Shown: positions 7,168 through 12,276 of the stretch, one piece after another
Position numbering within the stretch: the first letter of the stretch is position 1
Layout: the number at the start of each line of letters is the position of its first letter
Origin: Erythrobacteraceae bacterium
GTDB lineage: Bacteria > Pseudomonadota > Alphaproteobacteria > Sphingomonadales > Sphingomonadaceae
Direction of reading: 5' to 3'
Length of the DNA stretch: 64,000 nt
Assembly: GCA_024642525.1 (NCBI GenBank)
Contig: JAHEAX010000002.1
Span: forward strand, 124,001-188,000
The notes under the pieces: model-generated
Told to the model about the DNA's origin: nothing
The model's input: only the letters and a program-made list of their open reading frames with translations
Database searches by the model: none
Program-made: the position numbers and the translations under genes

Positions 7168-7590
7168 ATGTCCAAGCATTACAGCCGCGAACTCATTGCA
7201 GACCATGGTGCCGTTCTTGAAACGCCGCGCCCGCGCACGAAGGTGGACCGCACGTTCGAACTGCCTACCGGCCTCTACATGGCAACTGTCGGCTGCTATC
7301 TTGCGTTTCTGGCCACGCTGGCGACTGCCTTTGCCTCGCCCGGCCTCATCATCCCGATCGCGATTTGTGTCTTGACCATTTTCGCCATTTTTGGCGTTCC
7401 GTCGGCATGGGCGCGCATGGCACCTGAAAGCGCGAAAAAGCCGATGGCTTCCAACCAGTTCAACAGTCGGGGTATTTCGACCCTGACCGGCCATCTGAGC
7501 GCGGGCGAAGCCACGGTGCAGGTCCTTGTCCTGCCAGTGCTGATCGTATTGTGGGGGCTGGCTGTGGTGACAATCGCAGCGTTAGTCTGA
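7168..7590 (+). CDS. Small integral membrane protein, probably under FNR-type control
   Basis: A 140-residue protein I do not recognise. Residues 1-33 are hydrophilic and cytoplasmic-looking, followed by two close membrane helices at about 36-55 and 58-78, a polar linker with a basic patch around 88-92, and a third helix at about 116-139 that ends the protein. A good ribosome site (AGGGAG) lies 7 bases before the ATG. Its 3' end overlaps the 3' end of the convergent FNR-type gene by nine bases, and an FNR-type box sits upstream. A role in adaptation to low oxygen is inferred from context only. Confidence 0.8.
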   Translation: MSKHYSRELIADHGAVLETPRPRTKVDRTFELPTGLYMATVGCYLAFLATLATAFASPGLIIPIAICVLTIFAIFGVPSAWARMAPESAKKPMASNQFNSRGISTLTGHLSAGEATVQVLVLPVLIVLWGLAVVTIAALV

Positions 7591-8286
7591 AACAATCGCA
7601 CCAATGCCGGAAAGCTGAAGGCGCGCGGGGTCCAGCAAGGCGATCCCGCGTGCACCTTCGCGTCTGATGATGCCGCTTTTTTCCAATCGCGAAAGCTGAC
7701 GGCTGACGGTTTCAATCGTCAGGCCAAGCATGTTGGCCATTTCGCCGCGGCTCAGCGGCAATTCGAACTGGGCGGCTGGATGGCACGGCGAATCGCTGGC
7801 AGCCTGCGCCATCGCGAGGATAAGGCTGCCCACTTTCTCGTTGGCGGAATGCTTGCCGGTCAGCTGCAGTAACAAATGCGCACGGTGCAGGTCTTCCTGC
7901 GAACGGCGTAATAGTGCGCGGGCGAGCGAAGGATAACGATCAATCGCGCCGTCCATGTTGGCCCTGCTGAACGTGCACAGCTTGCTGTCGGTCAGCGCAA
8001 CCACGTCATATTGGGCGAATGGCTGGAACAGTTCGCCGATGAAGCCTGAAGGATGCACCAGTGCGAGAATGCGCTCTTCACCGTCAGGGTCGATGCTCGT
8101 CACTTTCATCGCGCCGCTGATAAGGGTGGCGCAGGCGGTCATCTCGTCTCCTGCATGAAACAGGATGTCGCCGCGCGCTATTTCGCGGATACGCCCGGCT
8201 GCGGCCAGTGCCTCGCGCTCGTCATCGTTAAGGACAGAGCAGGCTGCGCGGTCGCGCACGGGGCAACTGGCACAGGCAATGCTCAT
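7582..8286 (-). CDS. Crp/Fnr family oxygen-sensing transcription regulator (FnrN/FixK type)
   Basis: A 234-residue regulator with an N-terminal cysteine cluster C5-x2-C8-x7-C16 plus C104, the arrangement of 4Fe-4S-binding FnrN/FnrP proteins in alphaproteobacteria. A cyclic-nucleotide-binding-like barrel follows (about 25-140), then a winged helix whose recognition helix reads TIETVSRQL; the E..SR residues are those by which FNR reads TTGAT. The start overlaps the stop of an upstream lipoprotein gene by four bases. It is convergent with the membrane protein at 7168, in front of which a matching box lies. Confidence 0.92.
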   Translation of the reverse strand: MSIACASCPVRDRAACSVLNDDEREALAAAGRIREIARGDILFHAGDEMTACATLISGAMKVTSIDPDGEERILALVHPSGFIGELFQPFAQYDVVALTDSKLCTFSRANMDGAIDRYPSLARALLRRSQEDLHRAHLLLQLTGKHSANEKVGSLILAMAQAASDSPCHPAAQFELPLSRGEMANMLGLTIETVSRQLSRLEKSGIIRREGARGIALLDPARLQLSGIGAIVSD

Positions 8287-10580: not shown

Positions 10581-11456
10581 TCAGGCAGCAGGCATTACTG
10601 CGTCTGGAAATTCGCTTTCATATTTCCTGATCAAAGCGCGATCATCGTGGTTCCATGGGTGGAAACCGGGCAGGAAATAGGCTGCCCATTGGCCGGTGAT
10701 CCTGCGCAGAAAGCCCGGCTTCCACAGCAGATATGCGGCAATCTTGCGCTTTGCTTCGCCTGCCGGAATACCATCCTGCGCCAGCAGTTCGACCATGTCG
10801 TCCACGCGGTGCGAGATGAAGTTCTTGGTCACAATCAGCATCATGAGCGATTTGACCTTCCACCGCTTGAAACGCGTCCAATCGCGCGTGGCATGCAGCC
10901 AGGTGTCATAAGCGACGCCTTTATGTTCGACTTCTTCAGCCGAATGCCACCGCCACAGATCGCCAAGGTCGCCATCCGCACCATCAAGATGCGCGGGGTT
11001 GGTCAGCAGTTCCTGGCCGAGCATTGCTGTGAAATGTTCCAGCGCCATGGTGGCTGCAAGATTGAGAATCTGCGGCCGGTCTTTCGTCAAGGCGAGCATT
11101 TCCTCAACGCGCTTGTCGATGAAGGAAATGTCATAACCTGCTGATTCAGCGAGCTTGTTGAAAACGATGTGTTCGCGGGTGTGATTGATTTCCTGTTTCA
11201 CGAATGCCCGGATCTCTGCTTCCAGCTTCGGCGATGCGCCGTCGCGGTGCGCTTTAACGGATTCGATGAAAAATGCTTCGCCGCGAGGGAAGGTCGCTGA
11301 CAGGGCGTTGAACCATGCGGTTGCGACAGGGTCGCCATTCATCCACCAGCGGCGTGACTTGGTGCCGCGACCGAATTTGCGGTTACGCACGACGATATCA
11401 AGATCGTCCGGGCTGCGGCTGGTGGTATCGAGATTGATCTTTGCAGGAGCGTTCAT
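10581..11456 (-). CDS. PF10118-type metal-dependent hydrolase / ferritin-like di-iron protein
   Basis: A 291-residue helical protein of the PF10118 'metal-dependent hydrolase' family. Several Glu/His pairs placed as in di-iron helical bundles are visible: EINHTREH near 90, LEHFTAM near 140 and HSAEEVEH near 170. The physiological substrate is unknown; members are often controlled by TetR regulators. An ATG at 11468 is possible, but the consensus promoter just upstream would leave it about ten bases from the transcription start, so 11456 is preferred. It is divergent from a TetR gene with a double operator between them. Confidence 0.8.
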   Translation of the reverse strand: MNAPAKINLDTTSRSPDDLDIVVRNRKFGRGTKSRRWWMNGDPVATAWFNALSATFPRGEAFFIESVKAHRDGASPKLEAEIRAFVKQEINHTREHIVFNKLAESAGYDISFIDKRVEEMLALTKDRPQILNLAATMALEHFTAMLGQELLTNPAHLDGADGDLGDLWRWHSAEEVEHKGVAYDTWLHATRDWTRFKRWKVKSLMMLIVTKNFISHRVDDMVELLAQDGIPAGEAKRKIAAYLLWKPGFLRRITGQWAAYFLPGFHPWNHDDRALIRKYESEFPDAVMPAA

Positions 11457-11474
11457 TGGTCTATCCATGCTTAC

Positions 11475-11514
11475 TTACATCAGTGTAAATATGCCTTACT
11501 TACATTTGTGTCAA
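11475..11514 (-). promoter_or_regulatory. Consensus promoter covered by two TetR-type operators
   Basis: On the minus strand, TTGACA (11509-11514) and TATTTA (11486-11491) are separated by exactly 17 bases, a near-consensus housekeeping promoter for the hydrolase gene. Two similar inverted repeats overlie it: TTACA-TCAG-TGTAA (11475-11488, perfect) and TTACA-TTTG-TGTCA (11500-11513). The flanks also repeat: CTTACTTACAT occurs at 11470-11480 and 11495-11505, 25 bp apart. This is the layout expected for repression by the divergent TetR protein. Binding is inferred. Confidence 0.78.
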
Positions 11515-11667
11515 TAGTGAGATTTCAGCAAACTTGCGCATGAGAGAGCCTTGTTTCTGCGCGGACGAGAGGTGGTGCCCCGTTTGAGTCTGGCCCTTGT
11601 TTCATGCGGCCCTGCGTTCTAGGCGAGTGGGGACGACAATGAATGGCCCGGCAAGACAAAGGTCCCC

Positions 11668-12276
11668 ATGGCACCCCGCAAACGCCTTTCTCCCGAAGAA
11701 TCTCGATCTGCAGCGCTTCAGGCTGCGCGCGCACTGCTGATTGAATCAGGGCCGCAGTCAGTCACGTTGAAGGCAGTGGCAGGGCGGATTGGACGCACTC
11801 ATGCCAATTTGCTGCATCACTTCGGTTCTGCTTCAGGGCTGCAAAAGGCGTTGGCGGAACATCTGGCCTGGACCGTTTGCGAAACAATCAAGGATGCCGT
11901 CCGCGCCAGCAGGGTGGGGCTGGGCACGCCGCGTGAAGTGGTGGACCTGGCGTTTGACGCATTTGACAAGGAAGGCGCAGGCGCACTTGCCGGCTGGATG
12001 CTGCTGACGGGCAACGAAGATGCGCTGGACCCTATTATCGAAGCAATCCACGCATTGGTTGATGAAATAGCGCCCGAAGAAGCCGAACATGGTCGCCTGG
12101 ACGGAATGCGGGTGCATGAAGATACGCTGACGCTGGTGTTGCTGGCCCTTGGCGACGCGTTGATGGGGCAGGCACTCGCAAAGTCGCTTGGTCTGCCGCG
12201 CCAGACCGCGCGCGACCGTGCCGAACAATTGTTGATGGCTTCAGTGCTGGAACACGCCGCACAAGACGCAGGTTAA
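11668..12276 (+). CDS. TetR family transcription regulator
   Basis: A 202-residue regulator. The N-terminal helix-turn-helix spans about residues 14-60, with the typical VTLKAVAGRIGRTHANLLHHFGS segment (residues about 31-53). The C-terminal ligand-binding part is all-helical and has no feature that names the ligand. It is divergently oriented to the PF10118 hydrolase, 154 bases from a double operator that covers the hydrolase promoter, so it most likely represses that gene. The ligand might be a hydrophobic or fatty-acyl compound, but that is speculative. Confidence 0.9.
   Translation: MAPRKRLSPEESRSAALQAARALLIESGPQSVTLKAVAGRIGRTHANLLHHFGSASGLQKALAEHLAWTVCETIKDAVRASRVGLGTPREVVDLAFDAFDKEGAGALAGWMLLTGNEDALDPIIEAIHALVDEIAPEEAEHGRLDGMRVHEDTLTLVLLALGDALMGQALAKSLGLPRQTARDRAEQLLMASVLEHAAQDAG

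Follow-up and report, generated by a model that had tools for sequence, protein, structure and literature searches.

A TetR-family regulator divergent from a PF10118 gene as the probable repressor of a dispersed long-chain fatty-acid and hydrocarbon oxidation regulon

The window, i.e., the whole stretch of 64,000 nucleotides that was analysed, carries a TetR-family regulator gene divergent from a gene of the PF10118 family. Comparison of the DNA between them with related genomes indicates that this regulator probably represses a dispersed regulon for the oxidation of long-chain fatty acids and/or hydrocarbons and senses a fatty acyl compound. In the proposed mechanism, TetR would bind a palindrome (core approximately TTGACAYnnRTGTMA) over the -35 element of the PF10118 promoter, and in the source lineage a second operator copy would lie over the -10 and start region; the bound regulator would block RNA polymerase. 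Similar sites would put a CYP153 P450, a CYP120-like P450, a Coq4-like gene and an acyl-CoA synthetase under TetR control, and in fewer genomes the regulon would extend to a flavin monooxygenase that is AlmA-like and to a thioesterase of FadM/YbgC type. A long-chain fatty acid or an acyl-CoA would be the likeliest candidate for the inducer, and the PF10118 protein would probably be an O2-using di-iron enzyme in the same oxidation pathway. The sites with their positions and conservation, their co-occurrence with TetR, and the predicted fold and ligand pattern of the PF10118 protein were computed here.

The regulator (202 aa; 11668..12276, plus strand) is recognized by the TetR_N profile at 28.8 bits (cut-off 24, E 1e-6), and its neighbours are the PF10118 gene and a YgfZ-like gene. 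The PF10118 gene lies on the minus strand (10581..11456) and encodes 291 aa from its MNAP start. Translation probably begins at the ATG of 11454-11456 (MNAP...), preferred because most relatives begin with MNAP and the nearest one (L007) has no ATG further upstream. This gene is preceded by two direct repeats of 22 nt each, CTTACTTACATCAGTGTAAATA (11470-11491) and CTTACTTACATTTGTGTCAATA (11495-11516), which start 25 bp apart, are 86% identical and together span its -35 and presumed -10 elements. Read on the minus strand, repeat 1 (11495..11516) is TATTGACACAAATGTAAGTAAG, contains the -35 hexamer and scores 35.6 bits; repeat 2 (11470..11491) is TATTTACACTGATGTAAGTAAG, has the presumed -10 as its first six bases and scores 32.4 bits. 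The sequence-only reading had described repeats 25 bp apart over the -35/-10 region with a divergent TetR gene adjoining, and this arrangement was confirmed at the positions it gave. Its statement that both arms of the repeats read TTACA is exact for 11475-11488, while the other site reads TTACA...TGTCA.

The promoter, which had been called a textbook one, does contain TTGACA, a 17-nt spacer and TATTTA. The -35 hexamer (11509..11514, minus strand) is perfect and nearly invariant in the profile of the relatives, but the presumed -10 (11486..11491, minus strand) has only three of the six bases of TATAAT and is absent from the output of the promoter scan; relatives, too, most often have T and A as the first two bases of this hexamer. 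Both repeats open with TATTKACA, and TTGACA begins two bases into the first, TATTTA at the first base of the second. Because the -35 element lies in repeat 1 and the -10 in repeat 2, with a 17-nt spacer between them, the repeats are offset by 25 bp (6 + 17 + 2), and promoter geometry alone explains their spacing. Cooperative binding of two TetR dimers, which the sequence-only reading had derived from this spacing, is possible at the twin repeats, but the spacing does not require it, and 43 of 80 relatives (the best 80 of 331) have no second site of at least 8 bits.

A test restricted to the window is weak, as a pattern derived from the sites and allowed up to three mismatches returned both sites and the reverse read of one of them, against 0.96 matches expected. 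With the profile of the relatives, no match of at least 8 bits was found across the window beyond the two repeats. Related loci were then compared, by scanning one genome each from 84,980 species and keeping the best 80 of 331 relatives; judged by their titles, these 80 are sphingomonads or unplaced proteobacterial bins. At all of them (best 80 of 331) a TetR ortholog is found on the strand opposite to PF10118, and all of them have, ahead of PF10118, a sequence that agrees in at least 15 of 19 positions with a consensus built from the two window sites only, while none of 400 shuffled upstream regions reached 14 of 19. This contrast, 80/80 loci versus 0/400 shuffles, makes site conservation a strong test that the repeats exceed chance. 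The comparison across relatives supports the view that the neighbouring TetR uses these repeats as its operators.

A second site of at least 8 bits is present in 37 of the 80 loci (best 80 of 331), at a spacing of 25 bp in 34 of them and of 24 bp in three; 26 of the 43 single-site loci in this best 80 of 331 are titled Novosphingobium. Because the second site occurs in 37 loci only and the single site is shared by all, the single site over the -35 element is read as the common element and the twin as a lineage feature. In 36 of the 80 loci (best 80 of 331), the operator encloses the start codon of tetR as positioned by alignment, always with one and the same offset, which points to autoregulation of TetR. 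The distance between TetR and PF10118 exceeds 500 bp in 11 of the best 80 of 331 loci, and in ten of these 11 (L011, L029, L039, L043, L053, L054, L055, L060, L061 and L079) the space between PF10118 and TetR is taken up by a further PF10118 copy (45-53% identical), which suggests a local duplication in ten of the 80 (best 80 of 331). In the gap at L080, the remaining such locus, no second PF10118 copy was found. A comparison of 30 TetR loci bears on causality: where PF10118 is present in the retrieved stretch (21 loci), a site of at least 15 bits is always found, whereas three of the nine loci that have no PF10118 there carry a site, at 14-20 bits.

The same pattern occurs elsewhere in the source genome. 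With up to three mismatches allowed, it has five matches in 2.53 Mb, two of them at the PF10118 promoter from which it originates, and the reversed-pattern control gave no match in the same 2.53-Mb genome. The other three, with 2, 2 and 3 mismatches, are found immediately ahead of a P450 gene that follows hemH, a CYP153-like P450 gene and a Coq4-like gene, and sites before these three genes were found by local tblastn in all six congeners, the source included. The CYP153 protein matches PDB 6hqw, a P450, at 7e-212 and CYP153D17 (5h1z) at 1e-165, and the P450 after hemH is nearest to CYP120 (2ve3, 1e-53). A degenerate pattern fitted to the five source-genome matches gave 7-15 matches per genome in six congeneric genomes, against 1-5 for the reversed control, with both strands searched and palindromes counted twice.

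Three more genes with sites were found among the congeners. A site precedes an acyl-CoA synthetase gene in G000, G002, G003 and G004; the protein belongs to PF00501, and its best NCBIfam models, all below their cut-offs, are long-chain fatty-acid CoA ligases. Another precedes the gene of a flavin monooxygenase, which is divergent from a TonB receptor gene in three congeners; this protein is FMO-like (PF00743), its nearest solved structures are mostly Baeyer-Villiger monooxygenases, and we call it AlmA-like on a presumed likeness. The third site lies before a thioesterase gene divergent from leuC in G000, G002, G003 and G005, the product of which is of the 4HBT family and below the cut-offs of the YbgC/FadM models. 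The start codon is inside the operator at the thioesterase (L190 1513-1534), at the acyl-CoA synthetase (L172 1492-1513) and, as noted above, at tetR in 36 of the best 80 of 331 loci; operators that enclose start codons would fit leaderless transcripts. A good match was also observed in G000 (L175 1547-1570; G000:C10:196748) between the gene of a protein without Pfam match and that of a beta-barrel protein, and no such site was found at genes of this type in the congeners.

The counts across genomes used a site profile built exclusively from sites at PF10118, with 55 unique sequences taken from the best 80 of 331 loci. A site was scored when it had at least 13 bits within -250..+30 of the best match, and TetR was taken as present at 100 bits or more; G038 and G050, with TetR matches of 74-76 bits, were counted as genomes without it. 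As the genomes are related and the profile comes from PF10118 sites, the following tallies are not independent, and Fisher values overstate them: sites are present at CYP153 in 15 of 21 genomes with TetR and in none of four others (25 of 30 loci scored, L142-L166), at the acyl-CoA synthetase in 16 of 22 and none of eight (30 of 30 loci scored, with L231, cut by a contig end, entered as a miss), and at the AlmA-like gene in seven of 22 and none of four (26 of 30 loci scored, L192-L217, with L218-L221 excluded as remote). A site (L188) also precedes the flavin monooxygenase gene of G002, which is likewise truncated at the end of a contig and stands outside the tally. The Coq4-like gene has a site of at least 18 bits in 20 of the 27 matches listed, all of which were scored, and these include all 14 best matches. 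For the P450 after hemH, 27 of 28 matches were scored (L328 was excluded because it is only the latter half of a gene that is split), and a site of at least 16 bits is present in 17 of the 27, which are all 17 with at least 62% identity. Of the TetR-bearing genomes, six of 21 have no site at CYP153 and 15 of 22 have none at the AlmA-like gene, and the genomes with a diverged TetR, G010 and G017, have no site at the P450 or at CYP153. The start codon is overlapped by the site at the acyl-CoA synthetase in 13 of 16 cases and is clear of it in three; because the sites at the synthetase, the thioesterase and tetR (36 loci) overlap start codons, coding constraint may add to their conservation.

Outside the target zones, the profile had no match in 321,653 b, and the reversed profile had none in 446,193 b. 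The exact 17-base motif TKACAYNNRTGTMAGYA is present in 15 of 21 genomes of the same family and in none of 14 from other families, or, divided by the presence of TetR, in 15 of 19 genomes with it and in none of 16 without it; its reversed control had no match in these 35 genomes. Among these 15 genomes there are three, G013 (L264), G016 (L265) and G017 (L272), in which the sole match to the exact motif is at a place without a recognised target. A strong site also lies upstream of the gene of a 101-aa protein without Pfam match (L269 1181-1555), adjoined by a gene that by eye resembles that of an M16 peptidase; a site beside a gene similar to that of L269 was seen at L260 and L266, and L271 has an identical site.

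These distant sites would be due to chance if TetR were a purely local switch that controls only itself and PF10118, with the PF10118 substrate as its ligand. This is unlikely, although TetR does adjoin PF10118 at 80 of 80 loci (best 80 of 331), and the best of the five matches in the source genome, as well as the only twin, are at the PF10118 promoter. The three next-best matches all precede oxidation-type genes and are kept in six of six congeners, over a background of no match in 322 kb. Furthermore, six genomes of the family (G010, G013, G019, G024, G028 and G030) have TetR at 100 bits or more and no PF10118 above its cut-off, and two of them, G024 and G028, retain sites at CYP153, the P450 and Coq4. 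PF10118 without TetR was found in two genomes of the family, G008 and G025. The suggestion that the TetR ligand is the substrate of PF10118 is hence too narrow: TetR occurs without PF10118 in six genomes, and sites stand before other oxidation genes. With sites at several oxidation genes, one ligand common to the regulon, for example a fatty acid or an acyl-CoA, is likelier.

The second result that bears on causality comes from three genomes of another family (G038, G050 and G055). Their distant TetR, at 30-35% identity, and a Coq4-like gene are transcribed divergently, and a site of 20-21 bits lies in between; the Coq4-like gene, which lies on another contig in the source genome, is thus a direct neighbour of the TetR relative there. 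A TetR match in a congener, L088 (G003:C1:652731-653333), is listed with one internal TAA.

Binding of the sites by some other protein, e.g., the Crp/Fnr-type regulator encoded at 7582-8286 of the window or an unlinked factor, is quite unlikely. The gene of that regulator is 3 kb away, and an operator of the form TTGAC...GTCAA is loosely Fnr-like, but the half-sites of Fnr are spaced 2 bp closer than those of the present operator. Close orthologs of the regulator (more than 300 bits) are present in only six of 35 genomes, and the motif occurs without one in G004, G006, G009, G011 and G014; on this distribution of gene versus motif, the Crp/Fnr neighbour was rejected as the binder. The site instead tracks the TetR gene and covers the tetR start codon in 36 of the best 80 of 331 loci.

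A repressor role of the neighbouring TetR is suggested because the operators lie over -35, -10 and start codons. That TetR is an activator or mixed regulator like FasR is very unlikely: mycobacterial FasR, which NCBIfam names an activator, is among the fold matches of TetR (Z 12.6 to 12.9), but these site positions are those of a repressor, and the FasR model scores TetR at 20.9 bits versus a cut-off of 330. The TetR model (pLDDT 85) has the all-helical TetR fold, with 2g3b as best match (Z 13.8, rmsd 3.7, 178 residues aligned), and the fold matches listed are TetR-type regulators or unnamed structural-genomics entries. The fold was discarded as a guide to the ligand, with AlkX, DesT (oleoyl-CoA), FasR (C20-CoA), EthR, RutR and the original TetR, from which the family has its name, all within about 2 Z units. 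We infer the binding and repression by TetR, its ligand and the enzymatic activity of PF10118 from the comparisons given here.

The PF10118 (Metal_hydrol) profile covers the protein at positions 2-247 of 247, with 255 bits versus a cut-off of 33.2 (Pfam E-value 1e-75), and a di-iron ferritin-like fold is predicted. Alignments were made of 28 and 26 chosen proteins from the best 80 of 331, and in the 28 aligned proteins E64, E93xxH96, E144 and E179xxH182 are invariant (numbered from the ATG at 11468). In the model (pLDDT 82, pTM 0.80), four helices, 47-72, 80-109, 133-156 and 168-193, the last with a break at 182, bear this E, ExxH, E, ExxH pattern. The best structural matches are CmlI (Z 13.7, rmsd 4.3, 236 residues aligned), AurF (13.3) and soluble methane monooxygenase hydroxylase (13.1), with R2 proteins close behind, at a Z of about 13 that is near the chance level attainable by helical bundles. 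The top Foldseek matches include R2lox, stearoyl-ACP desaturase and aldehyde-deformylating oxygenase, none of them at E 0.001, and a sequence search for solved PF10118 relatives gave six matches at E 0.09 to 0.6, none convincing. The invariant ligand pattern together with the fold matches favours a di-iron oxidase or oxygenase rather than a hydrolase, although likeness in fold between helical bundles counts for little as evidence. No function of PF10118 was found in the open-licence literature, where COG3687 had no match either; PF10118 appears there in lanthipeptide work only, and a metal-dependent hydrolase together with alkane and AlmA only in work that is apparently unrelated.

A wider model can be offered tentatively, and is rather doubtful: as a master regulator, TetR might govern the oxidation of long-chain aliphatic compounds in Erythrobacteraceae and related sphingomonads. 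The regulon would then define a pathway in which two proteins act on products of the CYP153 and CYP120-like P450s, namely PF10118, as a di-iron oxygenase of a new class, and the Coq4-like protein, as an oxidative enzyme that works outside the synthesis of ubiquinone. An operator shared with CYP153, the acyl-CoA synthetase, the second P450 and the Coq4-like gene would allow a concrete guess at the chemistry of PF10118. TetR would offer a handle for testing PF10118 function and a candidate biosensor part, and sphingomonads would gain a fatty-acid/hydrocarbon regulator of their own. In the open-licence papers covered by the literature search, no report of the present regulon or of a role for PF10118 was found.

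TetR regulators of fatty-acid and alkane oxidation are already known, among them AlkX, PsrA and FadP. According to the accessible part of PMC8784404, AlkX of Dietzia is a TetR repressor of the alkane hydroxylase gene alkW1, its DNA binding is hindered by C10-C24 fatty acids, and its long operator is thought to hold a dimer or a pair of dimers. By analogy with this response to fatty acids, a fatty acid or an acyl-CoA is the likeliest inducer of the present TetR. Both systems would tie a TetR-type regulator to alkane hydroxylases, a link proposed here from operator sites. The AlkX structure (5ydp) and the present TetR model share 15% identity over 173 residues (Z 12.1, rmsd 3.6), a match tied with those of other TetRs, and AlkX is absent from the five PDB sequences that match the present TetR at E 0.01. 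The gene arrangement differs as well, as alkX is described in the same part of PMC8784404 as lying just downstream of the rubredoxin gene in an alkB-type cluster, whereas the present TetR adjoins PF10118. The hydroxylases at the present sites are P450s at scattered loci, unlike the alkB-type cluster of AlkX.

The targets of PsrA, FadP and FadR include acyl-CoA synthetase and thioesterase genes. In the accessible part of PMC5343134, these three proteobacterial regulators are said to control numerous genes of fatty-acid degradation; two of them, PsrA and FadP, are TetR proteins, and FadP is given as unique to Betaproteobacteria. The proposed regulon is set apart from theirs, by description, by its P450s, Coq4-like protein, flavin monooxygenase and PF10118.

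AlmA is a flavin enzyme. In the AlmA/AlmR system of Alcanivorax, according to PMC11784139, this long-chain alkane monooxygenase is repressed; AlmR is listed without a family and said to have an Ig-like domain in the available parts of PMC11784139 and PMC8784404. In comparison, the present operator is found at the AlmA-like gene in only seven of 22 TetR-bearing genomes. As to the enzyme itself, CmlI, AurF, R2lox, the aldehyde-deformylating oxygenase and soluble methane monooxygenase are among the fold matches of the PF10118 model, which has the E, ExxH, E, ExxH pattern on four helices; sequence identity is about 10-16%. One R2lox is reported, in the accessible part of PMC10867098, to be an alkane monooxygenase.
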